DNA of 48,700 nt from Bacteroidales bacterium (GTDB lineage Bacteria; Bacteroidota; Bacteroidia; Bacteroidales; UBA932), in NCBI GenBank assembly GCA_028690215.1, contig JAQVBQ010000011.1:1-48700 (forward strand), in the 5' to 3' direction. Shown here piece after piece: positions 331-44,466 of the stretch (its first letter is position 1; the number at the start of each line of letters is the position of its first letter). The position numbers were made by a program, and so were the translations under genes. The notes beneath the pieces are model-generated. The model was given only the letters and a program-made list of their open reading frames with translations, was not told where the DNA came from and did no database searches.

Positions 331-422
331 TATTAGTGGCACTTTTTTTTCTATTTACCTGATTCATTAGCACTTATAAAGAACTGATTGTAAGGTAAAT
401 AGAAAAAATAGTGCCACTAATA
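331..422. repeat. GTGGCAC inverted-repeat element A
   Basis: Left arm 331-360 and right arm 393-422 are inverted copies with a single mismatch in 30 bases: TATTAGTGGCAC, a T-rich tract, then CTATTTACCT. The spacer is 32 bases. It lies between rpoC and the convergent M64 peptidase gene. Three further elements at 15101, 40637 and 44348 share the GTGGCAC terminus followed by a T-rich tract but have different inner arm bases. Nothing inside it is coding. Confidence 0.88.
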
Positions 423-603
423 ATTAAAAGACAAACTCCGCCACAGCCACGTTTGATTTTTAGCTTATTTTCTGAAGTGATTTTCGGAAAAGGCTGAGGA
501 CCGTTCAACGACCAAAGGGAGGCGTTCCGGAAGCCCCGAAAATCACAAGGAAAATAGCGTTAAGAAAAACAACAGTGGCTGTGGCGGAGTTTGTCTTTAA
601 TTA
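421..603. repeat. Large GC-rich palindromic element (class 2, copy 1)
   Basis: The outer arms at 421-450 and 575-603 (core AAACTCCGCCACAGCCAC and its complement) pair over about 29 bases with one bulged A. An inner stem pairs GTGATTTTCGG (477-487) with CCGAAAATCAC (536-546), next to a TATTTTC/GAAAATA pairing. The centre is GC-rich (GGCTGAGGACCG and GGGAGGCG). The right arm runs into the stop codon of the M64 peptidase gene (601-603) and the left end abuts element A. With the terminator and element A this accounts for most of the gene-free stretch 183-600. It could be a REP/MITE-like repeat or a complex terminator. Confidence 0.8.
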
Positions 604-2484
604 TTTCATCAGCACCGGAGCCCCGAGCGGTTTGAATGTAACAGGATTGAAGCCCTTTGTGTAAATCGCAGCGGCTGCAGCTGAAGGAGCTTTTTCTACA
701 TCATTGGCCTTAAATGATTCCAGTGTATAGTACTTGCTCGCTCTTGAGAGGATTCTTTTTACCATAGCCTCTCTTGAAGGAGCGCTGAAGTAGAGTATGT
801 TATTTATCATACAGCTTGTGCTCTCCGCTCTCCATACTCCGTAAGTGAAGCCGTATCCACCTTCATAGGCTCCGACTCTCGAGTAACCCTCTGCTCCCAC
901 AAAATAGTTCCATTTAATATTTGTCAGATTTGAGGTCAGATCTATGTTTGCAAAAAAGCCAAGAGAACTCCACTGGTTGTACTCAGATATCGATGTCGAA
1001 TTAATTGTCTGGCCCTGATTTGTAATATATTCATCTGCTAATCCGCCGAGACCATGACCGACTGCCTCATGGAGAAGCACATTTTTATAGAGGCTTCCGG
1101 AAGTGTTTGTCCTGACTACAGGAGTCAAAGCCAAAGCTCTTCCGTCCGTCCACATGTAAGTTGTACCGGCATATCTGTCCTGATTGAGTAATACTATAAC
1201 CAATGTTTTGGTAAGTGATTCATTTGTCACTCCGGGTATTACCCTACAGTATTCGAATGCTTTATCGTAGTTGGTAGAGATATTTGATCCTCCGTCAAAG
1301 CGTGAGGAAAATACTGTGTTTTTGACAATGCTCTTATCTGACTGCGACACTCCGTTTTCTACAGAATATGAGCCCACCTTATATATTCTGAAGTGTTTCT
1401 TGTATGTTTTTAGCGGCTCTACGTTGAACAGCTCATTTATACCCTCTGCCACCTCAAGATTGAACTTACCTCCCTCTTGATAATCCGCGGCTGTATATCC
1501 GTCACCAAGGAATATTACTTCAACTGCCTGTCCGCTTCCCCCTGGATCAGTTGGATTTAGAACCAATTGGTACTCTTTTTCTGCCAACCCCTTTTTGGTT
1601 CCTGTTGTAAATGTATAAATAGGAGTTGAAACTCCCTCAATCCCATCATTTGCACTTACTTTCCAGCTGTAAGTAGTGTTTTCGTCAAGATGTCTTGGAA
1701 TATAAACCGATGTTGCGGTCACGACACTGTCCTTCCAATTAACATTGTCTTTGGTATAAGAAAGTGTATATGTTATGTTATCCCCGTCTGCGTCGGTGGA
1801 TGGTGTCCATGCAAAGTTTGTAAGAGTTCCCACATTTGTTGCATTTGCTACCGGTGAGGTAATCTGAGGTACGGTTGGAAGTGTGTTGGTGGATCTTGCC
1901 TGAGTTATCGTTATAACTTTACTCTCATTAGCATATCTGATTGTAATAAATGAGGTACGGAGAGGACCCGATGTGTTTTCTGGAACTGCAATATTTACAG
2001 TGGCATTGCCCTCACCGGACAAAGTGGCTATTGACGCCCATGTAAGTGTCAAAGGCATCTCAATAAGCCATTTTGTGTTTGATGTAATAACCAGTTGTTG
2101 TACAGATGCCGTTTTAGGATAGTTTAACTCAAGGCTGCTTGTGCTTAATTGCGCGTAATCCTGTGTGATGACAACCTCTTTTACAAGATCTTTGCTTACA
2201 ATCTTTAAAGTGGCGGTCCTTGACTGAGAGGAGTAGTTATTCCCTGCTGATACAGTGATTGTTGCATCGCCATCTCCGTTGGAAGGTGATATTGTACACC
2301 ATGTTCCGCTAATGGTTGCTGTCCAGTTTGTATTTGCTGTAAAAGCTACCTCCGCAGTTGACTCATTGGTAGGCAAAGAAACATCTGACTGAGAAAGTTC
2401 TATTTGAGGGACTATATCTTTTTCACATGCCATCACAGAGACAGCAGCTGTGATAAATATTATTGTTTTTAATTTGAGTTTCAT
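601..2484 (-). CDS. BACON/FnIII-domain lipoprotein with M64 (IgA-peptidase type) metalloprotease domain
   Basis: Predicted surface or periplasm-facing lipoprotein, 627 residues. It starts with a short signal peptide and a lipobox ending at Cys20 (SVMAC). Two BACON-type beta-sandwich repeats follow (about 27-112 and 113-198), each with the S.W..I.P..G.G...V.V pattern, then a fibronectin-III-like domain (about 203-295). The C-terminal half resembles peptidase family M64. It carries the zinc motif HEAVGHGLGGLADEY near residue 470, with two His as metal ligands and Glu as catalytic base. M64 is named for Clostridium ramosum IgA protease, but many Bacteroidota members have unknown substrates, so IgA cleavage is not implied. 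It follows the TlpA-like gene after a terminator and has its own -7 box (2504-2511). The 3' end coincides with the arm of a palindrome. Confidence 0.9.
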   Translation of the reverse strand: MKLKLKTIIFITAAVSVMACEKDIVPQIELSQSDVSLPTNESTAEVAFTANTNWTATISGTWCTISPSNGDGDATITVSAGNNYSSQSRTATLKIVSKDLVKEVVITQDYAQLSTSSLELNYPKTASVQQLVITSNTKWLIEMPLTLTWASIATLSGEGNATVNIAVPENTSGPLRTSFITIRYANESKVITITQARSTNTLPTVPQITSPVANATNVGTLTNFAWTPSTDADGDNITYTLSYTKDNVNWKDSVVTATSVYIPRHLDENTTYSWKVSANDGIEGVSTPIYTFTTGTKKGLAEKEYQLVLNPTDPGGSGQAVEVIFLGDGYTAADYQEGGKFNLEVAEGINELFNVEPLKTYKKHFRIYKVGSYSVENGVSQSDKSIVKNTVFSSRFDGGSNISTNYDKAFEYCRVIPGVTNESLTKTLVIVLLNQDRYAGTTYMWTDGRALALTPVVRTNTSGSLYKNVLLHEAVGHGLGGLADEYITNQGQTINSTSISEYNQWSSLGFFANIDLTSNLTNIKWNYFVGAEGYSRVGAYEGGYGFTYGVWRAESTSCMINNILYFSAPSREAMVKRILSRASKYYTLESFKANDVEKAPSAAAAAIYTKGFNPVTFKPLGAPVLMK

Positions 2485-2503
2485 ACTTATGATTTCATTT
2501 ATA

Positions 2504-2511
2504 CAAAATTA
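2504..2511 (-). promoter_or_regulatory. Bacteroidota -7 promoter box for the M64 peptidase gene
   Basis: Read on the minus strand this is TAATTTTG, a full match to the TAnnTTTG consensus. It lies about 20 bases upstream of the ATG. No clear -33 TTG was seen at the usual spacing. Confidence 0.55.
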
Positions 2512-2536
2512 ATAATAATACCGCAATCATCAGGCC

Positions 2537-2576
2537 AGAAAAAGAGAGGGTGCAAAAACTATTTTTGCACCCTCTT
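2537..2576 (-). terminator. Rho-independent terminator between the TlpA-like and M64 genes
   Basis: A perfect 13-bp stem (GAGGGTGCAAAAA at 2546-2558 with its complement at 2562-2574) has a 3-base loop. On the minus strand it is followed by a CTTTTTC tract. It ends the transcript that carries the carbonic-anhydrase-like and TlpA-like genes. Confidence 0.9.
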
Positions 2577-2596
2577 CATACAACAACTCAATGATG

Positions 2597-3733
2597 CTAT
2601 TGTTTAACCTCCGCACTCTTGAGTGAATCAATGTAACCTTTAACAAATCCAAGAATCTCATCTGTTGACACCTGTCTTCTAATAATGTTTCCGTTCTGGT
2701 CAACAAAGATGTTTTGTGGGATGTACCTTACATGGTATTTCTTTGCAACTTCGCTCTCCCAATACTTCAGTTCAGAAACCTGTGCCCATTCCAGTTTGTC
2801 ATCTGCAATGGCTTTATTCCATAATTCTGCATCCTTGTCCAATGAGACTCCGATAACGCCGAATCCGGTCTTGTTCAACTCCTTGTAAATTTTCACAAGT
2901 GTAGGGTTGAATTGACGGCATGGACTGCACCATCCTGCCCAGAAATCAATCATTGTTATCTTATTCTGTGTGTATACGCTTGATAAAGATATCTGATTGC
3001 CCTTAGGATCATTCAATGTAAATTCAGGAGCTTTCATTCCCGGAACCAAGCTCTTGAGTGTTGCTATGTCTGATTCTAATTCAGCTACATATGTATTAGA
3101 GGTGAACTCAGGTAAAGCTTTGAATGAGGCAAGTTTAGCCTCTGCATCCTCTATTTTGAAGCTCTCAAGATTCCTGACATACTGAATAAGGGTGTAAGGA
3201 GAAGCAGGATTATTCACATAAAACAGGGAATCGTATGCGGCCATCTCTTTTTGCATTTTTTCATAGAGTGAATCTATGACCATCCTACGCTCAGGAGTTG
3301 TTGCAGGATTTTCGTACTCTGCAAAAAGTTCTCCCATATTATAGGTTTTTGACAATGAATCCTTCTTTGCATTCAGTGCATTTACAAGTTCATTGGTAAC
3401 GCCTCCTTTTACTACAGCTTTGCTGAAATCTTCCTTAGCTGCTTCAATGGTATAGTTTGCATTTTCCAGGAAAAGCATGATTCTTCCCTTTATACCATCT
3501 ATTGTTATAGCATAGGTATCTGGAGTTTCGATGCTTCCTTCAAACACAAACTTTCCTTCTACCAGGTCGGCAGTATCCTTGACAGGATTTGTACGGGAGA
3601 AATTCTGCAGATATACTTTTGCATCAGTAATACTATCCCCGGTAACTGTTCCCTCGATCTTGTAGGAGTTTTCCTTTTGTCCTGTACAGGCAAATAAACC
3701 CATTACAGCGACCAATAATAATAGTTTTCTCAT
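2597..3733 (-). CDS. TlpA-family thiol-disulfide oxidoreductase lipoprotein (DUF4369-type N-terminus)
   Basis: 378 residues. The signal peptide ends in a lipobox with Cys16 (MGLFACTGQ), so the protein is probably anchored in the outer membrane facing the periplasm. Residues about 25-130 resemble the DUF4369 beta-sandwich that precedes thioredoxin domains in Bacteroidota. A helical linker follows, then an AhpC/TSA-TlpA-like thioredoxin fold from about 232. Its redox motif is WAGWCSPCRQFNP near residue 268, a CxxC pair with the usual cis-Pro region later (RYIPQNIFVD). The family reduces or oxidises periplasmic disulfides, but the target here is unknown. It lies 21 bases downstream of the carbonic-anhydrase-like gene and is probably cotranscribed with it. 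Confidence 0.92.
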   Translation of the reverse strand: MRKLLLLVAVMGLFACTGQKENSYKIEGTVTGDSITDAKVYLQNFSRTNPVKDTADLVEGKFVFEGSIETPDTYAITIDGIKGRIMLFLENANYTIEAAKEDFSKAVVKGGVTNELVNALNAKKDSLSKTYNMGELFAEYENPATTPERRMVIDSLYEKMQKEMAAYDSLFYVNNPASPYTLIQYVRNLESFKIEDAEAKLASFKALPEFTSNTYVAELESDIATLKSLVPGMKAPEFTLNDPKGNQISLSSVYTQNKITMIDFWAGWCSPCRQFNPTLVKIYKELNKTGFGVIGVSLDKDAELWNKAIADDKLEWAQVSELKYWESEVAKKYHVRYIPQNIFVDQNGNIIRRQVSTDEILGFVKGYIDSLKSAEVKQ

Positions 3734-3754
3734 GGCTTTGAATATTGGTTAGTT

Positions 3755-4273
3755 TTATTTTTCATCCTCTTTATACCACTCCTTGTACATCATGTAGCCC
3801 TGGGCATTCTTGTGAGCTGCCTTGCCTATATCCTCTGACCCCTCTTTAACTTTTTTTGCAGGTACACCTGCATAGACTCCGGGTTCGAGGGTTGCATTAC
3901 TGAGAACCACAGCTCCGGCAGCAATAATTGTGTTATCCGGTATGATTGCATTATCCATAAGAATTGCTCCCATACCTACTAGAACATTACTTCCCACCTT
4001 AGCTCCGTGAATTATTGCATTATGCCCTACTGACACATCGTTTCCAACTTCTACTACAGACCTTTTATATAAGGTATGTAAAACTGCCCCATCCTGGATG
4101 TTGACCCTGTCACCGATTCTTATAGGGTTCACATCACCTCTTAGAACCGCACCGTACCAAATACTGCAATCGTTTCCAATAACAACATCTCCAATGATGG
4201 CAGCATTTTCTGCAATAAAGCATCTCTCTCCTATCTTCGGTTCTACTCCGTTTAATTTCCTGATAATTGCCAT
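3755..4273 (-). CDS. Gamma-carbonic-anhydrase family protein (left-handed beta-helix, YrdA/PaaY-like)
   Basis: 172 residues with continuous hexapeptide repeats (for example IGDVVIGNDCSIWYGAVLRG and VGSNVLVGMGAILMDNA) that fold as a trimeric left-handed beta-helix. The conserved metal-site pattern is present: DRVNIQDGAVLH followed by VGHNAIIHGA supplies the three His ligands. The family includes zinc or iron carbonic anhydrases and proteins without proven activity, so the reaction is inferred. Start ATG at 4273; an upstream extension in another frame has no support. A good promoter (4295-4326) makes this the first gene of the unit with the TlpA-like gene. Confidence 0.92.
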   Translation of the reverse strand: MAIIRKLNGVEPKIGERCFIAENAAIIGDVVIGNDCSIWYGAVLRGDVNPIRIGDRVNIQDGAVLHTLYKRSVVEVGNDVSVGHNAIIHGAKVGSNVLVGMGAILMDNAIIPDNTIIAAGAVVLSNATLEPGVYAGVPAKKVKEGSEDIGKAAHKNAQGYMMYKEWYKEDEK

Positions 4274-4294
4274 ATAATCTGTTTATATAAAACA

Positions 4295-4326
4295 CAAAGG
4301 TACAATTTTTTAAAATAAGGTTACAA
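4295..4326 (-). promoter_or_regulatory. Promoter of the carbonic-anhydrase-like/TlpA-like unit
   Basis: On the minus strand a TTG (complement of 4324-4326) is followed after 21 bases by TACCTTTG (complement of 4295-4302). This fits the Bacteroidota -33/-7 promoter pattern. The predicted 5' leader is about 17-20 bases. Confidence 0.7.
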
Positions 4327-4471
4327 CCTAATACAAAACTTAAGGAAATCATTTTTGGAAATTAGCAAAATAGTGGCTAAAATTGCAAAATTATAAGGAA
4401 GGGGTCTGAAATATCTTATGATATCAAACTCATTATTTACAATTTGGTGTCAAATTTATATTTGACATTAG

Positions 4472-4503
4472 TTGTTTCCGAATAATAATAATAGCTACAT
4501 TTG
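4472..4503 (+). promoter_or_regulatory. Promoter of korAB(-gdhA)
   Basis: TTG at 4472-4474 is followed after 21 bases by TACATTTG at 4496-4503, matching the -33/-7 consensus. The ATG lies 25 bases further on. A second -7-like TATATTTG occurs at 4457-4464 and could be an upstream alternative promoter. Confidence 0.7.
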
Positions 4504-4528
4504 TAGATAATTTCATATAAAATTATTT

Positions 4529-6364
4529 ATGCAACACAAAGTTATTGACACAAAAGAAGTCGTAATCAGGTTCACAGGAGATTCCGGAGATGGCATGCAA
4601 CTGACCGGGACACTGTTTGCCGATGCCTCAGCATTGTATGGGAATGACATCTCCACTTTCCCTGACTACCCTGCAGAAATTCGTGCTCCTCAAGGCACTG
4701 TATCGGGCGTTTCCGGTTTTCAAGTAAATATAGGAAGTGGGGAGATCAAGACTCCGGGTGATTTCTGCGATGTACTCGTAGCGATGAATCCCGCTGCCCT
4801 CAAAGCAAATGCAAAATGGGCAAAACCGACAGCAACCATAATTTTAGATTCTGACACCTTTGATGAAAAGGGTATCCTTAAAGCAGGATTCAGGACTATG
4901 GAACCTGTCAAAGAGCTGAACATAGATGACAGAAACATAATATACGCTGCAATAACATCTCTTACAAAAGAGAGTCTTAAAGACAGCGGTCTTGATCCGA
5001 AAGCAATCATACGTTGCAAGAATATGTTCACACTTGGTATGTGCTACTTCATGTTCAACAGACCAACAGAAACAACATTTGCCTATATTGACAGGAAGTT
5101 CCGCAAGAAACCGGAAATTGCAGCAGCCAACAAGAAGGTGCTGATGGATGGTTTCAACTATGCAGGCAACATACATGCGATTCCAAATACATATACCATT
5201 AAGCCTGCCAAACTTGAAAAAGGTATTTACAGAAATATTAGCGGTAACCAAGCTACAGCCTGGGGATTGGTAGCAGCATCTGAAAAGTCCGGAAGACCTT
5301 TATTCTGCGGCTCTTATCCGATCACCCCTGCAACAAACATACTGGAAGAACTTGCTCTACGCAAAGACCTAGGCGTAAAAACCCTTCAGTGCGAAGACGA
5401 AATTTCAGGTATCTGTACTGCAATAGGAGCATCTTATGCCGGCAACTTTGCCGTAACTACAACTTCAGGCCCCGGACTTTCATTGAAAATAGAGGCCCTC
5501 GGTCTTGCAATGATAACAGAACTTCCTCTCGTTCTTGTTGATGTACAGAGAGGCGGTCCATCAACCGGTATTCCTACAAAGACAGAACAGACAGACCTTA
5601 ATCAGGCTCTCTACGGAAGAAACGGCGAGTGCCCTATCGCAGTCATTGCTGCTCACTCACCTTCACACTGTTTCGAAGCTGCATTCTATGCCGGCAAGTA
5701 TGCCATGGAGCACATGATGCCTGTTATATTGCTTACAGAAGGATTTATAGGAAATGGTTCTGAACCATGGAAAATTCCTTCAATGAAGGATTTTCCTGAA
5801 ATCAACCCTCCTATTATCAAAACACCTGAAGAGACACCGTTCTGGCCATACAAGAGAGACGAGAAAACCCTGGCACGCCGCTGGGCTTTCCCTGGAACTG
5901 TTGGTCTCGAACATCGTGTAGGCGGTCTTGAGAAGAACAACAACGGAGCAATATCCTCAGATCCTCTTGTCCATGAAAGAATGGTTGCCGAAAGGGCAGA
6001 AAAGGTACAGCGTCTTGCCAATTATATTCCTGAACAAAAAGTTATCGGAGAAGAGAGCGGAGAAGTACTCATCGTAGGATGGGGCGGAACCTTCGGCCAC
6101 CTGTACACTGCAGTAAAAGAGCTGCACGAACAGGGCAAAAGTGTCTCCCTGGCTCATTTTGATTATATATTCCCTCTACCTAAGAACACTGAGAAGATAT
6201 TCTCCAAATTCAAGAAGATTATCGTTTGCGAGCTGAACAGCGGACAATTTGCAAACTATCTCAGGACTCAGTATCAACAATTCAACTACCACCAGTTCAA
6301 CAAGGTACAAGGTCAACCTTTTATCGTAAAGGAGATAGTTGATGCAGTAAACGCTTTATTATAA
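4529..6364 (+). CDS. korA: 2-oxoacid:ferredoxin oxidoreductase subunit alpha (gamma-alpha fusion, 2-oxoglutarate type)
   Basis: 611 residues. Residues about 1-200 form the gamma-like domain (starts VVIRFTGDSGDGMQLTG). From about 215 comes the alpha pyrimidine-binding domain (FCGSYPITPATNILEEL, TTTSGPGLSLKIEALGLA). Together with the beta subunit encoded 20 bases downstream it oxidatively decarboxylates a 2-oxoacid with CoA and ferredoxin, or runs in reverse as a CO2-fixing carboxylase. The fused gamma-alpha layout and the 340-residue beta partner are typical of 2-oxoglutarate oxidoreductases of Bacteroidota. Substrate is inferred from architecture and from the following glutamate dehydrogenase gene. 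The enzyme is cytoplasmic and oxygen-sensitive, consistent with an anaerobe. Confidence 0.93.
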   Translation: MQHKVIDTKEVVIRFTGDSGDGMQLTGTLFADASALYGNDISTFPDYPAEIRAPQGTVSGVSGFQVNIGSGEIKTPGDFCDVLVAMNPAALKANAKWAKPTATIILDSDTFDEKGILKAGFRTMEPVKELNIDDRNIIYAAITSLTKESLKDSGLDPKAIIRCKNMFTLGMCYFMFNRPTETTFAYIDRKFRKKPEIAAANKKVLMDGFNYAGNIHAIPNTYTIKPAKLEKGIYRNISGNQATAWGLVAASEKSGRPLFCGSYPITPATNILEELALRKDLGVKTLQCEDEISGICTAIGASYAGNFAVTTTSGPGLSLKIEALGLAMITELPLVLVDVQRGGPSTGIPTKTEQTDLNQALYGRNGECPIAVIAAHSPSHCFEAAFYAGKYAMEHMMPVILLTEGFIGNGSEPWKIPSMKDFPEINPPIIKTPEETPFWPYKRDEKTLARRWAFPGTVGLEHRVGGLEKNNNGAISSDPLVHERMVAERAEKVQRLANYIPEQKVIGEESGEVLIVGWGGTFGHLYTAVKELHEQGKSVSLAHFDYIFPLPKNTEKIFSKFKKIIVCELNSGQFANYLRTQYQQFNYHQFNKVQGQPFIVKEIVDAVNALL

Positions 6365-6384
6365 TCTCAATAACCAGAAACATC

Positions 6385-7407
6385 ATGGAATTAAAATATA
6401 CACCACAGGATTTTAAAAGCAATCAAGAGGTAAAATGGTGCCCTGGTTGCGGTGACCACGCCATTCTGGCATCGGTTCAGAGAGCAATGCCGGACATATG
6501 CGAGGCTCTTAAATATACAAGAGAGCGTTTTGTATTTGTTTCCGGAATCGGCTGTTCATCACGTTTTCCTTATTACATGAACACATACGGATTCCACGGA
6601 ATCCACGGCAGGGCCTCTGCCATATCAACCGGAGTCAAGGTTGCCAATCCAACCCTCACAGTATGGCAGATAACCGGAGACGGTGATGCCCTTGCAATCG
6701 GAGGTAACCATTTCATACACGCTATCAGAAGAAATATTGATATCAATATCATACTTTTCAACAATCAGATTTACGGTCTTACAAAAGGACAATACTCCCC
6801 TACTTCAAAACTTGGAATGGTGACAAAGACATCTCCGTTCGGAACTGTTGAGCACCCTTTCAATCCAGGCGCATTGGTACTGGGAGCAAGGGGAACATTC
6901 TTCGCAAGAAGCCTTGACATTGAACTCAAGCTGACACAAGACATCATGCTGGCTTCTGCAAAGCACGACGGCACAGCAGTTACCGAAGTCCTTGTAAACT
7001 GCGTTATTTTTAACGACAAGACTCATGCAACTATTTCCGACAAGGAGAACAGAGCCGACAGGACAATAGTACTGAAACATGGTGAGCCAATGATATTCGG
7101 TAAAAACCGTGACAAAGGACTTATCTTGGTTGGCAGGACACTGAAAGTTGTCAAGATTGGAGAGGGTGGCATAACCGAGAAAGATATTCTTATACACGAT
7201 GCTGAAGAGGAGAACCCAGGACTTCACTCTATGCTTATAGACATGAAGTATCCTGAATTACCTATAGCACTTGGTGTTATCCGGGCCGTAAAGGATAAAA
7301 CATACGACGACAATGTCCGAGATCAGGTTATTGATGTGAAGGAACATGCACAGATTCACAACATGGATGAACTTCTAAGGAGTGGATCAACATGGGAAGT
7401 CAAATAA
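6385..7407 (+). CDS. korB: 2-oxoacid:ferredoxin oxidoreductase subunit beta
   Basis: 340 residues; the thiamine-diphosphate-binding partner of the preceding subunit. Visible motifs are WCPGCGDHAIL near residue 17 and the ThDP motif GDGDALAIGGNHFIHA, followed by NNQIYGLTKGQYSPTS. The four-cysteine iron-sulfur site expected in the beta chain is partly visible (CPGC and a later Cys in GIGCSSRF). It lies 20 bases after korA in the same operon. The next gene, gdhA, is on the same strand 49 bases away with no terminator between, so read-through is likely. Confidence 0.93.
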   Translation: MELKYTPQDFKSNQEVKWCPGCGDHAILASVQRAMPDICEALKYTRERFVFVSGIGCSSRFPYYMNTYGFHGIHGRASAISTGVKVANPTLTVWQITGDGDALAIGGNHFIHAIRRNIDINIILFNNQIYGLTKGQYSPTSKLGMVTKTSPFGTVEHPFNPGALVLGARGTFFARSLDIELKLTQDIMLASAKHDGTAVTEVLVNCVIFNDKTHATISDKENRADRTIVLKHGEPMIFGKNRDKGLILVGRTLKVVKIGEGGITEKDILIHDAEEENPGLHSMLIDMKYPELPIALGVIRAVKDKTYDDNVRDQVIDVKEHAQIHNMDELLRSGSTWEVK

Positions 7408-7456
7408 TAAAACCTTGATTAAAACATAAAATCACCAAACATTAATAAAAAACATT

Positions 7457-8794: not shown

Positions 8795-8827
8795 AAACTT
8801 TCGTAAATATATTACGATTTAATACTT

Positions 8828-8864
8828 AAAAAGGCTGACTTTAACAAGTCGGCCTTTTTTTTGT
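8828..8864 (+). terminator. Rho-independent terminator after gdhA
   Basis: A 12-bp stem (AAAGGCTGACTT at 8830-8841 with AAGTCGGCCTTT at 8846-8857, one G-U pair) has a 4-base loop and is followed by eight or more T. It ends the korAB-gdhA transcript. Confidence 0.92.
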
Positions 8865-8884
8865 TTTGCAGAGCAAAAGAAAGA

Positions 8885-8970
8885 GGCAACTTTCATTTTG
8901 TAACCATTCTTTTGCAATGTAAAACCAACAAGGGTCTACAGAAGGTGCTACTTTCATTTTAATACCATTT
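8885..8970 (+). repeat. Pair of direct repeats upstream of the susCD operon
   Basis: Two near-identical sequences, ACTTTCATTTTGTAACCATT (from 8889) and ACTTTCATTTTAATACCATT (from 8950), are 61 bases apart in the same orientation. That is close to six helical turns. They lie 120-200 bases upstream of the predicted -7 box of the SusC gene. They are candidate binding sites for a regulator. The rest of the gap 8795-9157 holds the gdhA terminator and the SusC promoter. Confidence 0.55.
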
Positions 8971-9091
8971 ATTGATTTTTTTGGACATTTTAATAGCTAT
9001 ATTTTATTATTGGTTAAAATTCGACAGAATATAATTTCAAATAATCAATCACTTTTTTTCATTTCTTGTTTTTTTTTGTGGATAAAAATTT

Positions 9092-9099
9092 TAACTTTG
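9092..9099 (+). promoter_or_regulatory. Bacteroidota -7 promoter box for the susCD operon
   Basis: TAACTTTG matches TAnnTTTG and lies 58 bases before the SusC ATG. T-rich sequence occupies the -33 region, with TTG at 9066-9068 slightly too far upstream. The 5' leader would be about 54 bases. Confidence 0.6.
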
Positions 9100-9157
9100 T
9101 CTTTACTAAGATTATTTTACTTAACTAGACTAAAATTATTAACTAAAACTTTCGTAC

Positions 9158-12337: not shown

Positions 12338-12363
12338 TTTGATCTAATCTAATAATAATCATT

Positions 12364-14013: not shown

Positions 14014-14045
14014 TAATTTTATTAAATGTTAGAAAAAGAAAAAAT

Positions 14046-14935: not shown

Positions 14936-14937
14936 AT

Positions 14938-15031
14938 ACTCGTCTGTGTCCGCTCGGAAAAGCCTCCCCACCTAACTGTGGGTCCCCTCCCTCCTCGGGA
15001 GCCGAGTTTTCCTTAGCGGACACAGACGAGT
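14938..15031. repeat. Large GC-rich palindromic element (class 2, copy 2)
   Basis: The outer arms ACTCGTCTGTGTCCGCT (14938-14954) and its exact complement (15015-15031) pair over 17 bases. An inner GGAAAA/TTTTCC pairing (14956-14961 with 15007-15012) extends the stem. The centre is rich in C and G (CCTCCCC and CCCCTCCCTCC). The layout resembles 421-603: long matched outer arms, a GGAAAA inner stem and a GGGAGGC-like core. The outer arm sequence is different. It lies between convergent genes. Confidence 0.75.
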
Positions 15032-15061: not shown

Positions 15062-15100
15062 AAAAAAGAGTTCGGTGAATACCGAACTCTTCTATTTTTT
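15062..15100. terminator. Bidirectional terminator between the susCD operon and hppA
   Basis: An 11-bp perfect stem (AAGAGTTCGGT at 15066-15076 with ACCGAACTCTT at 15081-15091) has loop GAAT. It has A6 on the left and TCTATTTTTT on the right, so it can act on both strands. It is well placed to end the long minus-strand envelope operon that finishes with hppA. Confidence 0.85.
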
Positions 15101-15220
15101 GTGGCACTGATTTTTCTATTTCTCTGTATGTCTGAGTTTTTTGAAATGAATCAGTTAGCCGTTATTATTAATAAATTTATATGTCGTTAAATATGTGAGA
15201 AATAGAAAAATCAGTGCCAC
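15101..15220. repeat. GTGGCAC inverted-repeat element B
   Basis: The arms are exact inverted copies over 24 bases: 15101-15124 begins GTGGCACTGATTTTT and continues CTATTTCTC; the complement is at 15197-15220. The spacer is 72 bases, AT-rich and non-coding. The right end lies three bases from the hppA stop codon (15224-15226), and the left end follows the bidirectional terminator directly. It shares termini with the elements at 331, 40637 and 44348. Confidence 0.9.
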
Positions 15221-15223
15221 ACA

Positions 15224-31241: not shown

Positions 31242-31244
31242 CAG

Positions 31245-32189: not shown

Positions 32190-32211
32190 AAATCATTAAT
32201 CTACTAATTAA

Positions 32212-33147: not shown

Positions 33148-33155
33148 TTTAATTT

Positions 33156-33959: not shown

Positions 33960-33961
33960 AT

Positions 33962-34276: not shown

Positions 34277-34280
34277 CCAA

Positions 34281-37111: not shown

Positions 37112-37132
37112 CTAGAACACAACTATAATAAT

Positions 37133-37954
37133 ATGCGAGTAATTATTCAAAACACTTACGAGGAGATTTCTCAATGGGCAGCAGCCTATATAGTAAAGAG
37201 GATAAACGAGTTTGCGCCTACAAAGGCAAAACCTTTTGTTCTTGGTCTTCCTACAGGGTCAACACCTAATGGTACATATAAAGAGTTAATAAGACTACAC
37301 AGAGAGGGACTCGTATCATTCAAGAATGTAGTTACCTTCAATATGGATGAATATATCGGTATTCCGCGCGAGCATCCACAATCATACTTCACATTCATGT
37401 GGGATCATTTTTTCCAGTATATCGATATTGAAAGAGAGAATGCCAACATACTTGATGGTAATGCCCCTGATATCGAAGCTGAATGTGAGAATTATGAGAA
37501 AAAGATGGCTTCATATGGTGGCATCAAACTCTTCATGGGTGGTATCGGTCCTGACGGTCATATAGCATTCAACGAGCCAGGTTCATCTCTGGTGTCCCGC
37601 ACTCGCGTCAAGAGTCTTACCACTGACACCATCATTGCAAACTCAAGATTCTTCAACAACGATATTCATCAGGTGCCTAAAACTGCCCTGACTGTTGGTG
37701 TCGGAACCATCATGGATGCTGAAGAGGTTATGATTCTGGTTAACGGTCATCACAAAGCAAGAGCATTGTATGAGGCTATTGAGGGATCAATCAACCATAT
37801 GTACACAGTGAGCGTACTGCAGATGCACAGAAAAGGCATCATCGTGTGTGATGACGCCTCAACTGTTGAACTTAAAGTAGGTACTGTAAACTACTTTAAG
37901 GATATTGAAAGAAATAACCTAGACCCTAAATCTCTTTTGAAGGGTCTTAAATAA
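37133..37954 (+). CDS. nagB: Glucosamine-6-phosphate deaminase
   Basis: 273 residues. It converts glucosamine 6-phosphate to fructose 6-phosphate and ammonia. Family motifs: [38 protein letters not shown] (catalytic Asp), and [20 protein letters not shown] with the ring-opening His. The length matches the short allosteric hexamer type. It is the last gene of the long plus-strand run; the convergent hydrolase-like gene begins its stop codon only 4 bases away. Confidence 0.96.
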
Positions 37955-37958
37955 TATA

Positions 37959-39044
37959 CTAACTCAAAAATTCCGAAGCTTTTGAGAAGACCCTGTCAAA
38001 CCAGTAGCTCCTCTCTTCGGCATTGACCTTCGGCCCTGCTTCAGGGAAAGGTATTTCGTGAGAATAGTTAAATGGAAAATCAAGTTCCTCCAGGCATCGA
38101 AGTTGTTCGATACCCAGAGCGGACTTGATTCCGTTTGTAGGTATTACGGTGTCTTTCTTTAATGAGAGTGCCTGTATACGGTAAGCATTCTCATTGTAAA
38201 AATACTCTCTCTGTGTCCTGTTCAGGGACTTATCAATATGACAAATAAAGGCGTGCTCTATCGAATCACCCTTTAGTCTTTTCTCATTCTTAAAATAGAT
38301 AAAGTTTTCAGTGTAATATTTTAACATTACATCAAATGATGACTTATCCATAATCATCCTTGAATCGCCGTTCATTTCGTTGAAGACGGAACCTCCGCAA
38401 AACATGAAGAGTTTGCTGTTAGTGAAATAGTATTCAGGGTTTGCAAACAGAAGTACTTGTGAAAGAAGTGCGCCTATTGAGTATGCAAAAATATCAACCT
38501 TTGCATTTTTGTCAATCATTGGGTGTCTCCCCTTTCTTATCTGGTTCATTATCTGACATACATTGTAAACGCTTTCCCTGCCTGAAAGATAGAATCTGTA
38601 TGGGTCTGCAATTATCCTTTTGCTCAGTGCATAATTTAGGAAGGTCAGATGGCTGCTCTTTAGAGTTTCTCTGTCCTCATCGGCCAGAAAAGGCTGCATT
38701 GAACGCGGTGTCGCCCACTCCATCGGAGATCTGTTTATGTGAAATGCTATAGGGAAAAGAAGGACCGGTTTGCGTGTCTTCTCTGCAATATATTTTGCCC
38801 AGGGATAGTACTTATCCCAACTTCTCTCATTGAGACCATGGAATAGAAATATTAAAGAGTCAGCTTTTCCGCTTGCCGATCTTCTCATTCCTTCCGGCTC
38901 CACTATCTGATATTCGAAATCCTGATTCTCTTTTATCTCGTCATCAGGTTTCATATAAAAAGCAGGAGAGGCGGTTCTCTTCATATCTTCGACAATCTCC
39001 TCCTTACCGAAGATTTCTTGAAATAAAAATTTATGAAACTTCAT
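37959..39044 (-). CDS. Alpha/beta-hydrolase-like protein (DUF6051-type)
   Basis: 361 residues without a signal peptide. It resembles the uncharacterised Bacteroidota family DUF6051. Alpha/beta-hydrolase features: an oxyanion-hole-like SLIFLFHGLNERSWDKYYPW near residue 67, and a nucleophile-elbow-like DIFAYSIGALLSQVLLF near residue 187, where the pattern is A-Y-S-I-G instead of G-x-S-x-G. A late His is available in FNYSHEIPFPEAGP. Hydrolase activity is plausible but not shown, and the substrate is unknown. It is monocistronic and divergent from the LytTR gene. Confidence 0.7.
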   Translation of the reverse strand: MKFHKFLFQEIFGKEEIVEDMKRTASPAFYMKPDDEIKENQDFEYQIVEPEGMRRSASGKADSLIFLFHGLNERSWDKYYPWAKYIAEKTRKPVLLFPIAFHINRSPMEWATPRSMQPFLADEDRETLKSSHLTFLNYALSKRIIADPYRFYLSGRESVYNVCQIMNQIRKGRHPMIDKNAKVDIFAYSIGALLSQVLLFANPEYYFTNSKLFMFCGGSVFNEMNGDSRMIMDKSSFDVMLKYYTENFIYFKNEKRLKGDSIEHAFICHIDKSLNRTQREYFYNENAYRIQALSLKKDTVIPTNGIKSALGIEQLRCLEELDFPFNYSHEIPFPEAGPKVNAEERSYWFDRVFSKASEFLS

Positions 39045-39117
39045 AACTCTGATTTTTTATGCAAATGAAAGCTTATGCAGGGCAGATGTCAAAAAAATGG
39101 TGAATAGCAACCTGTTT

Positions 39118-39169
39118 TGGGACGAAATTCTCAAATATGGGACGAAAATATTATATGTGTTGCGAAATA
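39118..39169 (+). promoter_or_regulatory. Three 20-bp-phased direct repeats (TGnnnCGAAA) upstream of the LytTR gene
   Basis: TGGGACGAAATT starts at 39118, TGGGACGAAAAT at 39138 and the degenerate TGTTGCGAAATA at 39158. The spacing is exactly 20 bases, two helical turns, so all three lie on one face of the DNA. The -7 box begins at 39178, again 20 bases on. LytTR domains are known to bind short direct repeats, so autoregulation is likely. Confidence 0.7.
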
Positions 39170-39177
39170 ATTTTAAC

Positions 39178-39185
39178 TATTTTTG
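39178..39185 (+). promoter_or_regulatory. -7 promoter box for the LytTR gene
   Basis: TATTTTTG fits TAnnTTTG. It ends 11 bases before the ATG at 39197, giving a very short leader. No -33 TTG stands at the normal distance, consistent with an activator-dependent promoter. Confidence 0.55.
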
Positions 39186-39196
39186 TATAGAAGATT

Positions 39197-40036
39197 ATGA
39201 ACATCCCAAAATATATTAACGAAAAGAACAATATTGTGCGTCTGGTTTCACTGACAGCACTGTTTGCTTTGGTATTTATCAATATCTACAAGCCGTTCAG
39301 TTCTGAAAACTGGTACCAGATAAGTGACTTTATGTTCTTTGTCTACTCAAGTCTTATAATTCTGACCGGAGTACTGGTGGTGATTATCAGTAGGATAATA
39401 ATGTATTTCTACAGTAGAAAGCATGATATCTCGTACCGTTTATATGTTATATGGGTACTTCTCGAGATTCTGTTCATGTCTCTCTTTTATACAGTTTACA
39501 CCATTTGTGTAAGACACGGAGTGGATGTTATGGAGACATTCAAGAACTCTACAATCAACACATCACTTGTTCTGCTTTTACCATACGTGACTCTCTGGAT
39601 ATATATGGGATGGCGAGAGACCCAGAAGAAGCTGGAGAAAATTGAGAATGACGAGGAGCTCGACATGAATCCGCTTAAAAGTATCGCTTTCAAAGATGAG
39701 AAAGGAGTCCTGATGCTATCAATACAGATGCAGGATCTTCTTTACATTGAGTCTGACAATAATTATGTCGAGATTCACTATACCTCAAACGGAAAAAACA
39801 AGACATATCTTTTGAGAAATAGTCTCAAAAATATGGAGACCATGCTTTCGGACACCTCTGTGGGTCGATGTCACAGGTCATATCTTGTAAACTTCGGACG
39901 CGTTAAGGTTATGCGTCGGGAAAAGGATGGGCTCTATCTGGAGCTTGATGCTCAGGGTGTGATAGATATACCCGTCTCAAAGACCTTCCAGGAAAAGGTT
40001 GGAGAGAAATTTGTCACCCACTCTTTCAAGAACTAA
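39197..40036 (+). CDS. Membrane-anchored LytTR-domain transcription regulator (4TM-LytTR)
   Basis: 279 residues. Four hydrophobic segments (about 13-32, 43-67, 83-105, 123-140) are followed by a charged linker and a C-terminal LytTR DNA-binding domain (about 170-270). The domain shows LLYIESDNNYVEIHYTSNG, SVGRCHRSYLVNFGRV and the final DIPVSKTFQEKV. There is no receiver domain. The layout means DNA binding from a membrane-held protein that may sense a signal in or near the membrane. Phased repeats stand directly in front of its promoter. The GPx-like gene converges on it, 4 bases away. Confidence 0.9.
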   Translation: MNIPKYINEKNNIVRLVSLTALFALVFINIYKPFSSENWYQISDFMFFVYSSLIILTGVLVVIISRIIMYFYSRKHDISYRLYVIWVLLEILFMSLFYTVYTICVRHGVDVMETFKNSTINTSLVLLLPYVTLWIYMGWRETQKKLEKIENDEELDMNPLKSIAFKDEKGVLMLSIQMQDLLYIESDNNYVEIHYTSNGKNKTYLLRNSLKNMETMLSDTSVGRCHRSYLVNFGRVKVMRREKDGLYLELDAQGVIDIPVSKTFQEKVGEKFVTHSFKN

Positions 40037-40040
40037 TCCT

Positions 40041-40595
40041 CTACAACAAAGAAATAATCTCTTCTGAGAGAGGTTTTACCTTTGAACCGAAGTGTTCGAG
40101 AAGGTTACCATTTTCATCTATGAGGTACTTGTTGAAGTTCCAACTTGGCTCACTTTTGCACCAACCATTCTTTGAAGGCTGGGTAAGCCATTGATAAACT
40201 GCGTTTTTATTCTTCCCCTTTACAGATGATTTCTCCATCATCTGAAATGTCACTCCATAATTTATTTCACAGAATGATTGGATTTCTGAATTTGTTCCGG
40301 GATCCTGATTCAGGAAGTCATTGGAAGGGAATCCCAATACTACGAGTTGATTGCCATACTTTTTATGAAGCTCCTCCAAATCCTTGAACTGAGGTGTGAA
40401 ACCACATTTTGATGCGGTGTTTACTATCAAGACCTTTTTGCCCTTCAGCTGGCTGAAGTCAAATTTTTTACCCGATATTGTATTGAATGAGAGGGCATAA
40501 AAATCCTCTTTTGCAGGTGCCTTCTTCTCCTGTGCTCTCGATGTAAAACTACTGAACAGAGCCAGTATTGATATTAATAGTGCTGATTTTTTCAT
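40041..40595 (-). CDS. Glutathione-peroxidase-family thiol peroxidase, exported
   Basis: 184 residues with a signal peptide (cleavage near SRAQE, residue 21), so it acts in the periplasm. GPx motifs: VNTASKCGFTPQF with the peroxidatic Cys (not selenocysteine) near residue 62, VLGFPSNDF, and SWNFNKYLIDENG with the catalytic Trp and Asn. Bacterial members usually work as thioredoxin-dependent peroxidases. It is separated from the divergent TonB receptor gene by inverted-repeat element C. Confidence 0.93.
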   Translation of the reverse strand: MKKSALLISILALFSSFTSRAQEKKAPAKEDFYALSFNTISGKKFDFSQLKGKKVLIVNTASKCGFTPQFKDLEELHKKYGNQLVVLGFPSNDFLNQDPGTNSEIQSFCEINYGVTFQMMEKSSVKGKNKNAVYQWLTQPSKNGWCKSEPSWNFNKYLIDENGNLLEHFGSKVKPLSEEIISLL

Positions 40596-40636
40596 TGTAT
40601 TTTGTTTTGAATATAAACAGAGAAGAGAGATGAATG

Positions 40637-40765
40637 TTTAGTGGCACAGATTTTTGTAATACCATGACATATAACACATTGTTTTATTACAAGCGTACTA
40701 TTCAGATATTTAACACATTATACACACATGACTATTTGATGATTACAAAAATCTGTGCCACTAAA
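40637..40765. repeat. GTGGCAC inverted-repeat element C
   Basis: The arms match exactly over 24 bases: 40637-40660 (TTTAGTGGCACAGATTTTTG and TAAT) and 40742-40765. The spacer is 81 bases and holds two copies of TAACACATT. It occupies most of the gap between the divergent GPx-like and TonB receptor genes. The right arm ends 16 bases before the first possible receptor start (40782). The inner arm bases differ from elements A, B and D. Confidence 0.9.
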
Positions 40766-40781
40766 ATAAAAATCATAATAA

Positions 40782-43193
40782 ATGAGTATGCACAGGAGAG
40801 ATGATTGGGATATCTTTGCGGCCGTTATGAATTATCCTATAAGAGCCATTATTCTTACATTTCTGACATACGTCAGTTTTTTTAATACCGCTTTTGCACA
40901 AAAATCTCCTACTGACCAGCACTTTTTCCCTATACGGGCAGAGAGCGCAGCTGAGATTGCGAGTGATGATACCACCGGAAGGGCATCGAGACGGCAGGCA
41001 AGGGCTGAAGAGCGGAAAATAGTTATTAATCCGGCAATAATCACCGGCTACCTAAAAGGCGGAGCAGTAGATGAGCAGGTGGCATCGATAACCAGAGTAT
41101 TCATGCAGAGGCTAGAGACAGAGAGCGTCACTGCTCTCAAGGATCTCTCTGCAACTGTTCCCAATTTTTACATCCCGGATTACGGGTCAAAAATGACCTC
41201 TTCTGTCTATGTAAGGGGGCTGGGTGCCAGGATCGACAATCCTGTTGTGGGAATGTATGTTGACGGAGTCTCGTATCTTAATAAGAACAATTTCGATTTT
41301 GATTTTTTTGATATCCGTTCTGTCGATGTACTGAGGGGACCACAGAGCACTCTTTTCGGAAGAAACACAATTGGCGGGCTGGTAAACATAACTACAATCT
41401 CCCCTCTGGCTTATCAGGGTACCCGTGCTTCGATAGGATATGGCAACGGAAACACCTTTTCGGCACAGGCATCGCACTACAGGAGGATTAACGGAAGTTC
41501 CGGGATCTCTTTCAGTGGTTATTACAAAAGTTCGGATGGCTTTTATAAAAACGAGTTTTCTGGTGAGAATTCTGATTGGTACAAGGGGGCCGGATTACGA
41601 ATCCGGGGGCAGTGGGTAAAATCTGAAAACCTAAGCTTTGACAATAGTTTCAGTATATCCTGGGTCGATCAGGGAGGGTTTCCTTACGGTAAGGTTGACA
41701 CCTTGACCGGTAATATTCAGGATGTCAATTATAATGATATAAGCGGTTATTCACGGTTTACATTGAGTGAAGGGTTATCTTACAAACGTATGTTGGAGAG
41801 ATATGTGCTGACCGGCGTTACATCGTACCAGTATACCGATGATTGTATGGATATGGATCAGGACTTCACCCCCGACTCATATTTCACATTGAGGCAAAGC
41901 CAGAATGAACACGCTCTTTCGCAGGATGTTGTTATTAAACCTAAAGATGAGAATGGAAACTGGAGATGGCTTAGCGGTGCATCTGCATTCTTTAAGTACC
42001 AGAAGATGGATGCTCCGGTGACATTCAAGAGGGACGGAATTGAGAGGCTTATTCTGGCCGGGGCAAATAAGGGGCTTAGCAGTGTATTCCCGGGAGAGGA
42101 GATTTTAATTGAAGAGGAGAGCTTTGTAATAGGCAGTCTGTTTAAGACATCTACTTATGGTGCGGCAATATATCATCAGTCTTATCTCAAGAGAGGCAAG
42201 TGGCTGTTTGAGGCCGGGGCGAGGCTGGATTACGAAGGGTCGGGACTTGACTATAACAGCAACTCAGTCATCCATTATCTCTTTACGATGACTATGTCTC
42301 AATACAGAGAGATCAAATCAATCCTGAAAGGCAACGAACGGCTGAACTATTTTGAAATTCTGCCAAGATTGGCAGCTTCATACAACTCCGGGAATATGAG
42401 GCTCTCTGCCTCCGTTGCCCGAGGGTACAAAGCCGGAGGCTATAATACTCAACTCTTCTCGGATATTCTGCAAAATCAGATGAGGCTGGATATGATGAAC
42501 GACCTAGGTGTTCATTTTACAAACTCTGAATACTCATCATACAGCGTAGCCGATGTGATTACCTACAGACCGGAGTATTGCTGGAATATGGAGGCCGGAG
42601 TAAATTACAGCCCGGAAAATTTCAATCTTGAGCTCACACTGTTTGACATTCTCTGCAATGACCAGCAACTCACCGTCTTCCCTGCCGGAAGCAGTACCGG
42701 TAGGATGATGACAAACGCCGGAAAAACAAGGAGTTTTGGTGCTGAAGGGACTATTTCCTACAGAAAAGGAAATCTCCGTTTATCTGGTGAATACGGATAT
42801 ACAAATGCCCGTTTCATAAAATATGACAACGGCCATAATGACTATTCGGGAAAGTATGTGCCATATGTGCCACAACACACAGTATCCGCAGGATCTGACT
42901 ATACTATAATGGCCAAAAGGTCTTCCAGGATTTTTGACAAAGTGGTCTTACACCTCGATGTTAAAGGCTTCGGAAAGATCTACTGGAATGAGTCCAATAC
43001 TCTTCACCAGCCATTCTATGCTCTTCTGAACGGATCCGTATCAATACAGAAACAAAAGGTATCTATGGAAGTATGGGGAAAGAATATAACCTCTTCAAAA
43101 TACAATACATTCTATTTTCTCTCAATGGGCAACTCCTTTCTGCAAAAAGGGAAACCTGTTCAATTCGGGGTCTCACTGAAAACAAATTTTTAA
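40782..43193 (+). CDS. TonB-dependent outer membrane receptor
   Basis: 803 residues from this ATG. The signal peptide is MNYPIRAIILTFLTYVSFF, so the internal ATG at 40827 may be the true start (788 residues). After a basic stretch (RASRRQARAEERK) comes the plug: LKDLSATVPNFYIPDYGSK, SSVYVRGLGARIDNPVVGMY, VDVLRGPQSTLFGRNTIGGL. A 22-strand barrel follows, ending in FGVSLKTNF. It lacks the carboxypeptidase-D-like domain and SusD partner, so it belongs to the siderophore/metal/vitamin class rather than the glycan class. Substrate unknown. A small lipoprotein gene follows after 9 bases and a LuxR-type regulator converges behind it. Confidence 0.9.
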   Translation: MSMHRRDDWDIFAAVMNYPIRAIILTFLTYVSFFNTAFAQKSPTDQHFFPIRAESAAEIASDDTTGRASRRQARAEERKIVINPAIITGYLKGGAVDEQVASITRVFMQRLETESVTALKDLSATVPNFYIPDYGSKMTSSVYVRGLGARIDNPVVGMYVDGVSYLNKNNFDFDFFDIRSVDVLRGPQSTLFGRNTIGGLVNITTISPLAYQGTRASIGYGNGNTFSAQASHYRRINGSSGISFSGYYKSSDGFYKNEFSGENSDWYKGAGLRIRGQWVKSENLSFDNSFSISWVDQGGFPYGKVDTLTGNIQDVNYNDISGYSRFTLSEGLSYKRMLERYVLTGVTSYQYTDDCMDMDQDFTPDSYFTLRQSQNEHALSQDVVIKPKDENGNWRWLSGASAFFKYQKMDAPVTFKRDGIERLILAGANKGLSSVFPGEEILIEEESFVIGSLFKTSTYGAAIYHQSYLKRGKWLFEAGARLDYEGSGLDYNSNSVIHYLFTMTMSQYREIKSILKGNERLNYFEILPRLAASYNSGNMRLSASVARGYKAGGYNTQLFSDILQNQMRLDMMNDLGVHFTNSEYSSYSVADVITYRPEYCWNMEAGVNYSPENFNLELTLFDILCNDQQLTVFPAGSSTGRMMTNAGKTRSFGAEGTISYRKGNLRLSGEYGYTNARFIKYDNGHNDYSGKYVPYVPQHTVSAGSDYTIMAKRSSRIFDKVVLHLDVKGFGKIYWNESNTLHQPFYALLNGSVSIQKQKVSMEVWGKNITSSKYNTFYFLSMGNSFLQKGKPVQFGVSLKTNF

Positions 43194-43202
43194 ATATATA
43201 AT

Positions 43203-43679
43203 ATGAAGAATCTATTTTCTCTTAAAAACAAATCTCTATTTATTGCTCTGTTAATGACCACATTTTTTGTGGCTAGCTGCGAAAAGGAAGAAGAACCTCT
43301 GAAGTTAACAGAAGACGGTACCTATTCAGGACAACTTGCAGTCGACCAGCTGAACGGCACCAATTATACCAGCAGCAATGTTCAGGTAAAGGTTACACCT
43401 TCGGCAACTGCCGGTTATATCACAATAGATATGCTTCAGGTTTCCTTCTCCCCCAGAATGCCTGTCAAACTTGACATGAAGATTCAAAATGTAGTGTATA
43501 CAAGCACAAGCGAGAAGATTACCCTATCAGGCAACAATATAATACCAATTGCAATGGGTGGTGAGTTCCCTGCTTATACAATTACAAATCTTACCGGTGA
43601 GATTCAGAATGGGATACTCAGTCTATCTATGATGTGCGGAAGTTTTCCTCTCACATATACCGGGACACTTCTTCTATAA
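43203..43679 (+). CDS. Small lipoprotein, possibly calycin-like
   Basis: 158 residues with signal peptide and lipobox (FFVASCEKEEEP, Cys26). The mature part is all-beta in pattern (GTYSGQLAVDQLNG, NVQVKVTPSATAGYITIDML, TGEIQNGILSLSM). It resembles calycin-like domains of Bacteroidota lipoproteins, but the match is weak by eye. It lies 9 bases after the TonB receptor gene and is almost surely cotranscribed, so it is a likely surface or periplasmic partner in uptake. Its last 6 bases overlap the convergent LuxR-type gene. Confidence 0.75.
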   Translation: MKNLFSLKNKSLFIALLMTTFFVASCEKEEEPLKLTEDGTYSGQLAVDQLNGTNYTSSNVQVKVTPSATAGYITIDMLQVSFSPRMPVKLDMKIQNVVYTSTSEKITLSGNNIIPIAMGGEFPAYTITNLTGEIQNGILSLSMMCGSFPLTYTGTLLL

Positions 43680-44270
43680 TTTGTCAATATCGACATAACC
43701 ATGGGTTACGGCATAGATAGTGAGGCCTGATACAGATTTGATGGCAAGTTTCTCGGTTATATTCCTTCTATGAGTAATGACAGTCGTTACACTGATATTT
43801 AACCGATCCGCTATCTCCTTGTTGATAAACCCTTTTACAATAAGAGTAAGCACCTCGATCTCTCTTGCAGAGAGCAATCGGGGTGTTTCTGTTTGCACTG
43901 GGGCTTCCGGAGTGTGGTAGCCATGATGGTGTGCTCCCTGGTGAATACTTAGTATCGATTTGACAAGTTCCTCCTCCGGTTGTGAAAGGTCCAGTATCCT
44001 GAAACCCTTAGTGGCATTGTTTGCCTCATTGTGCGATGTAAACACGATTGTCTTTTTCTCTCTGGGGACAAAAAAGTTACTGTTGAGGAACAGGACTGAG
44101 GATGAGATAAAGTAATGGAAGCACTCTTCAGGATTGTCTTTGAGAAACTCATCAAAATTGCCATAGATGCACAGCTCTGCAAAAGGAACGACCTCACTTA
44201 ACAGAGACCTGAGCCCGATGCAAGTGGCAGTGTTTTCATCTATGATCGCTATTCGTAGTTTCCCGTGCAT
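43674..44270 (-). CDS. LuxR/NarL-type regulator with degenerate receiver domain and His-rich linker
   Basis: 198 residues. The N-terminal part has a receiver-like fold start (LRIAIIDENTATCIGLRSLL). At the place of the phospho-acceptor Asp it reads HYFISSSVLFLNS, without Asp, so normal phosphorylation is unlikely. A linker follows with a His cluster (SIHQGAHHHGYHTPE, about 107-121). The C-terminal HTH (about 133-198, LLSAREIEVLTLIVKGFINK and EIADRLNISVTTVITHRRN) is a standard LuxR/GerE domain. The His cluster suggests metal or heme sensing, which is an inference. It converges on the TonB receptor operon, its probable target. Confidence 0.85.
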   Translation of the reverse strand: MHGKLRIAIIDENTATCIGLRSLLSEVVPFAELCIYGNFDEFLKDNPEECFHYFISSSVLFLNSNFFVPREKKTIVFTSHNEANNATKGFRILDLSQPEEELVKSILSIHQGAHHHGYHTPEAPVQTETPRLLSAREIEVLTLIVKGFINKEIADRLNISVTTVITHRRNITEKLAIKSVSGLTIYAVTHGYVDIDKL

Positions 44271-44309
44271 ATTTTATTCTCAATAGATTGTAATAACAAG
44301 ATTCAAATC

Positions 44310-44317
44310 CAAAGATA
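44310..44317 (-). promoter_or_regulatory. -7 promoter box for the LuxR-type regulator
   Basis: On the minus strand this is TATCTTTG, matching TAnnTTTG, 39 bases upstream of the ATG. Element D begins 31 bases further upstream, so it covers the -33 and activator region. Confidence 0.55.
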
Positions 44318-44347
44318 AATGTATGGGTAATTCTTGTTTTGAGCAAA

Positions 44348-44466
44348 ATTTGTGGCACTGATTTTTGCATCTTGCTGATTTATTGGCACATGAGATTTTG
44401 GAAATAATAATTTCAATTTCTTAAAGCACAAAATATGTGGAAGATGCAAAAATCAGTGCCACAAAT
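44348..44466. repeat. GTGGCAC inverted-repeat element D
   Basis: The arms are exact inverted copies over 26 bases: 44348-44373 (ATTTGTGGCACTGATTTTTG then CATCTT) and 44441-44466. The spacer is 67 bases. It lies between the divergent LuxR-type gene and the 201-residue protein gene. The right arm ends 13 bases before the latter's ATG. An open frame that starts at 44435 inside the right arm is an artefact of the repeat. Confidence 0.9.

Follow-up and report, generated by a model that had tools for sequence, protein, structure and literature searches.

GTGGCAC-ended hairpin repeats with coordinated arms in a Bacteroidales genus, and their probable kinship with REPINs

What kind of repeat keeps its two arms matched within every copy while the arms differ from copy to copy? 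The question arises in a 48,700-nucleotide stretch of DNA from a bacterium of the order Bacteroidales (lineage UBA932; assembly GCA_028690215.1, contig JAQVBQ010000011.1, positions 1 to 48,700 of the forward strand; hereafter the window), where a preliminary description had noticed four small inverted repeats, A to D, sharing the terminus GTGGCAC. Most likely, these are REPIN-like, non-autonomous hairpins whose ends are recognised by a cognate RAYT, an HUH/Y1 transposase (PF01797) that copies or moves them; a transposase acting on single-stranded DNA has probably spread the repeats. All four were recovered where they had been placed, and they belong to a distinct, dispersed family of hairpin-forming repeats with coordinated arms. 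In the window's own genome (G000; 2.65 Mb, 153 contigs), the end GTGGCACWGATTTTT occurs 57 times in exact form and the looser GTGGCACNNNTTTTT 64 times; the pattern read backwards, which served as a control, was not found. Among 60 genomes searched, this one included, GTGGCACWGATTTTT was matched in three: besides G000, 93 times in Bacteroidales bacterium CF (G009; CP006772.1), a member of the same genus with a single-contig genome, and once in G055, a genome from another family. The other 23 genomes of the genus that were searched contain none. A search of the genome and its relatives, proposed in the preliminary description, has thus yielded far more than four elements and one congener rich in ends, and the family suspected there is indeed a distinct one. 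Copies are dispersed and mainly intergenic, many overlapping the ends of open reading frames (ORFs); in G009, 71 of 96 looser sites fall within 1.686-2.172 Mb.

For the counts that follow, a left end was paired with the right end next to it when 60-250 bp separated the two, which gave 27 elements in G000 and 32 in G009; copies that are nested, ends with a degenerate foot and pairs lying further apart fall outside this set of 59. Two inverted ends and a spacer together form a single hairpin of 81-190 bp, mostly of 81/82, 111 or 119-122 bp. The lengths 81/82, 111, 119-122 and 131/132 bp were noted with regard to helical phasing, the copies not being independent of each other. The consensus end reads T-N-W-GTGGCAC-W-GATTTTT-CTAAT, with T at position -3 in 114 of 118 flanks, and its terminal foot, GTGSCAC, is near-palindromic. 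The ends carry a 5′ GTGG and a 3′ CCAC; GTGG is a variant of the GTAG type, but one that the search pattern itself demanded.

Left and right arms of the same element agree beyond shuffled partners over the first 15 bases (z 4.5 and 5.2) and again over bases 16-20, both in G000 (0.78 vs 0.62, z 4.7) and in G009 (0.83 vs 0.67, z 6.3); at bases 21-25 the agreement is weak (z 0.8 and 2.3, respectively), and from base 26 on none above shuffling was detected. Base 8 is T in both arms of 42 elements and A in both arms of 13, only 4 being mixed, and at bases 16-20, where 34 of the 59 match exactly, ten different matched arm types occur. Arm-matched divergence, as reported in the preliminary description, is accordingly confirmed by covariation across the family, whereas the matching over 24-30 bases seen in the window is atypical, agreement across the 59 elements being clear to base 20 and weak at 21-25. 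The spacers had also been said to have no sequence in common, which was an overstatement: among 118 arms, a weak consensus is present at arm positions 24-45 (C24 in 83, A27 in 81, T40 in 97, A43 in 85).

Within the window, GTGGCACNNNTTTTT is found 14 times with up to two mismatches, nine of them exact, against a shuffle mean of 5.07; 1 of 100 shuffles reached 14. Folded as single-stranded DNA, the four elements are more stable than their shuffles (z -7.1 to -10.2), none of 200 being equally stable, and an Rfam scan of the window at the gathering score returned no match. No strand is assigned to any of the four. Element A (331-422) has 30-base arms with one mismatch (97% complementary) and feet at 336-342 and 411-417, 82 bp from foot to foot. 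It is an array, because a further left end, GTGGCACTGTTTTTT, overlooked in the preliminary description, lies on the plus strand at 241-255 as the outer arm; in the inverted-repeat scan, this arm also pairs with 393-429 (arms 229-265 and 393-429, 92%). Element B (15100-15221) has perfect 25-base arms (100%), measures 120 bp between feet (15101-15220) and ends 3 bp from the 3′ end of an ORF. Elements C and D each lie between divergent ORFs. The former (40637-40765) has perfect 24-base arms (100%) and measures 121 bp (40641-40761); the latter (44348-44466), with arms perfect over 25 bases by eye, measures 111 bp (44352-44462) and appears in the inverted-repeat scan as part of a longer, weaker pairing. 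Two other inverted repeats are found close by: one adjoins element A (427-598; 34-nt arms 427-460 and 565-598, 91%), and one, partly kept in G009, shortly precedes element B (14938-15031; 24-base arms, 88%).

The association with a RAYT comes from G009, where an ORF at 1714009-1714809 encodes 267 residues with a PF01797 match (E 6e-10) and the motifs NHFH and YILNNP. At its 3′ side this gene reaches into an element of the family, and a second element is located upstream; a PDB sequence search with this protein gave no match. RAYT-like matches are present in 33 of the 60 genomes, and when the best locus was taken from each of 20 genomes, inverted repeats flanked it on both sides in ten and on one side in four. 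Three RAYT-linked families are dispersed, each being absent from 3 to 5 of six genomes searched: the pattern of one family was found 4 times in G000 and 13 times in G009, that of another 10 times in G027, and that of the third 27 times in G010, 11 times in G006 and twice in G012, with none of the three in the remaining genomes of the six. The pairing is exact for 26 of the 27 G010 copies, but for 8 of the 13 G009 copies and 6 of the 10 G027 copies. In a second RAYT-linked family, CAGAGGAAAAGTGTC (L138-L152), all 15 fetched elements measure 98 bp core to core, a constancy that contrasts with the variable length of the GTGGCAC family. The gene that in G000 bears a GTGGCAC element at its 3′ side (L035) has a counterpart in G010 (L133) that ends in an element belonging to another RAYT-linked family.

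Comparison of orthologous sites shows how the elements change. The window is collinear with 1817-1863 kb of G009 at approximately 88-92% identity, and 18 orthologous pairs of elements were compared, nine with both flanks alignable and nine with one. In 9 of the 18, neither arm differs over its first 20 bases, with loop identities of 0.65-1.00, which makes selection on a structure the best supported of the options entertained in the preliminary description. Among the window's own elements, B has unchanged arms and a loop identity of 0.76 to its orthologue (L065), C has unchanged first 20 arm bases and a loop identity of 0.70 (L066), and D has a loop identity of 0.95 (L067); about 1.47 kb of extra sequence is found in G009 (1861485-1862956) at the left edge of D (window position ~44350). 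Coordinated changes are exemplified by L006/L072, where CTAATTCGC in both arms stands against CTAACTCAC in both, and by base 8 in L004/L071 and L042/L044. One-sided arm changes are also seen (L034, L036, L006, L004, L042, L030).

Other sites differ in content. The site orthologous to element A is a single foot in G009, as is that of L035 (at L051), and at L040 a shortened hairpin is all that G000 keeps. Immediately downstream of the stop codon of the L051 gene, no GTGSCAC was found in the congeners G021, G022, G017, G020 and G006, and the equivalent gene end in G010 carries an element of another family; although identities to the congeners are only 45-57%, this comparison favours loss at L051 over an empty target. 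At L007:1501/L074:845, different elements occupy one place, the G000 copy resembling an element ~1.1 kb further on. Two elements have a common foot at three places (L058:966, L061:981, L044:1012), the second arm being imperfect in two of them, and arrays of ~75-bp units vary in number (L020/L063). Larger differences were noted as well. An ORF of 796 codons between two elements in G000 (L038:2089-4635) has no counterpart at the collinear position in G009 (L068:1139-1910), and a G009 element (L034, L028 and L048) has its left flank matched on one G000 contig and its right flank on another, so that elements may be located at breakpoints of rearrangements. Near elements in both genomes, an additional dispersed repeat recurs, with the sequence GGCAGTGG.GGCAGGGCTGTTGCTTGCCTAAGCATTTC or a close form of it (L018, L039, L044, L045, L077).

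We infer that the G009 RAYT acts on the elements, and in the following manner. The cognate RAYT would recognise the inverted ends as folded single-stranded DNA and then copy or move the element; the need for a hairpin would keep the arms complementary and leave the loop to drift. In Marinomonas Mb (PMC8266576), replacement of GTAG by GTGG led to cleavage at CC, and at CA. Both dinucleotides lie within the 3′ foot GTGCCAC, and by analogy the RAYT may cut there, the GTGG guide in the 5′ foot setting the position. Since such a cut would fall inside the foot, a foot would be left behind, and re-entry could occur at a resident foot in either orientation. The sites found inverted, replaced or reduced to a single foot, together with the feet common to two elements and the lack of a direct duplication, count in favour of the REPIN-like reading. 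A doubtful extension of this scheme is that GTGSCAC serves as both element end and docking site, gene ends carrying feet between which cassettes are exchanged, inverted and stacked. The matching of the arms may also be read as the result of hairpin-templated correction.

Several observations weigh against the REPIN-like reading. No cognate RAYT was found in G000, whose sole RAYT match is 37% identical and of another type; the G000 copies may consequently be orphans of a RAYT that was lost, or the gene may be unassembled. When the RAYT-bearing segment of G009 was compared with G000, the matches (best 40 of 55 scored) were element-like apart from one of 95 bp (84%) beside an element, and the 12 kb of G009 around the gene gave no match (best 40 of 60 candidates scored, with no positive control). 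These RAYTs do not conserve the W-Q positions that have been linked to recognition of GTAG (PMC6006769), HGKQFTKPFES standing in their place, and 6 of the 20 RAYT loci lack inverted repeats by the scan used. Six single arms of 40 nt are no more stable when folded than their shuffles (z -0.79 to 1.63), unlike classical REPs. In one orthologous pair, at window position 606, G009 has an element and G000 has no foot, which speaks against a foot always being left. In the CAGAGGAAAAGTGTC family, the inner arm shows no coordination in G010 (z 0.0 to -1.6), agreement outside it is marginal (z 2.8 at -10..-6, and 2.3 with G006 added), and at +1..5 a z of 2.6 arises only when G010 and G006 are mixed; with little or no coordination in that family, matched arms are not a general property. 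The copies are related, so that the shuffle scores do not represent formal probabilities, and single feet and inversion could also have arisen by slippage during replication or by switching of the template at palindromes.

Among other explanations, resident regulatory hairpins at transcript ends, acting as terminators or stabilisers of mRNA under selection and no longer mobile, survive best, yet we regard them as improbable. Gene context, taken from mechanical ORFs of at least 80 codons, gives this idea its appeal: between -44 and +14 bp from an element edge lie 41 of 63 ORF 3′ ends as compared with 12 of 51 5′ ends, and stop codons are frequently located within an arm (C-termini such as SGTDFSN and WH). 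Conservation of arms while loops drift fits it as well, and so does the other-family element that ends the G010 orthologue of the L035 gene. However, although 30 elements lie between tandem ORFs and 14 between convergent ones (with 4 at an edge and 1 inside an ORF), 10 of the 59 lie between divergent ORFs, the 23 other congeners searched lack the family, and arrays, common feet and site polymorphism point to mobility. A regulatory function could nevertheless be a secondary role of mobile elements.

Slightly less probable still are ordinary miniature inverted-repeat transposable elements (MITEs) mobilised by a DDE transposase with a GTGGCAC terminal repeat, their arm matching reflecting shared ancestry. 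Dispersal, near-constant size classes and inverted ends are in keeping with such an origin, and a DDE insertion sequence adjoins elements in G009. This one insertion sequence, however, has other ends (TGATGCGTTAA and TTAACGCATCA, by eye) and sits inside a GTGGCAC element (L058:2030-3430). Direct target duplications of 2-10 bp do not exceed shuffling among the 59 elements (z -1.5 to 1.8), and these two facts, the missing duplication and the ten matched arm types at bases 16-20, bear out the earlier view that the family is not a simple MITE family.

Least probable by our estimate are invertible switch segments with a site-specific recombinase acting on the arms, an option of the preliminary description to which one clear and one weak inverted loop of 18 lend something (L008:2500/L074:3032, a reciprocal best match scoring 30 when inverted and -2.5 in forward orientation, where 1000 shuffles reached at most 2.5; L004/L071, 7 against -5, best shuffle 4). 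The forward score is higher in the other 16, however, and in each of the two inverted cases a single flank can be aligned, so that they may reflect rearrangement (to the right of the former, a few hundred bases are unalignable before collinearity resumes). Neither a shared promoter nor a dedicated recombinase came to light, though no systematic search was made for either. Two further candidates were discarded: a sigma-54 promoter in TGGCAC...TTGC, which by eye is one base too long and has an unconserved second element, and an integron attC site, prompted by the arm matching within sites and dropped once the RAYT link appeared.

Because of their association with RAYT genes, the elements are best placed beside REPINs, which form RAYT-specific families of whole-element hairpins with compensatory arm changes and excision leaving end bases (Bertels and Rainey 2011, PMC3116915). 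Shared with that account are the inverted doublet, preferred spacing, whole-element hairpin, compensatory changes, a nearby RAYT (in G009), tandem arrays and excised copies that leave some end bases. There, in contrast, each end is a palindromic REP; the present family has arms that do not fold singly, a GTGGCAC foot and several lengths (81-190 bp). As the single arm forms no hairpin, membership among classical REPs fails on this feature and the family is filed as a variant that functions like a REPIN. Double-foot REPs of TnpA-Y1 subclass 2.4 (Quentin 2018, PMC6006769) likewise have 5′ GTGG and 3′ CCAC at their ends, and the NHFH and YILNNP of the G009 RAYT fit NH[IFV]H and YIxNNP; unlike in that subclass, the loop is far longer than the 2-5 nt on which REP prediction was based in that study, and W-Q of the guide-recognition region is unconserved. 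The atypical repeats of subclass 2.6, described there mostly from Bacteroidetes, resemble the present case in the Bacteroidales host, the unconserved guide-recognition region and the unusual structures that border the RAYT genes and also occur elsewhere, but they have no GT[AG]G and a YIH[QN]NP motif in place of GTGG and YILNNP. TIRYT genes (PMC3733652) also encode tyrosine transposases and have terminal inverted repeats on either side, with the conserved motif GGGGWSAS instead of GTGGCAC. The movement of REP and REPIN repeats is still largely inferred, and here two species provide orthologous filled, inverted, replaced and single-foot sites; with these and a cognate RAYT in the single-contig genome of G009, cut position and re-entry become testable. 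The family is set apart from known systems by the length of its loops, by single arms that do not fold by themselves, by its near-palindromic foot and by indications of exchange at feet. The survey further shows that one Bacteroidales genus harbours long-loop hairpin families, tied to individual RAYTs, that searches for short hairpins would miss.

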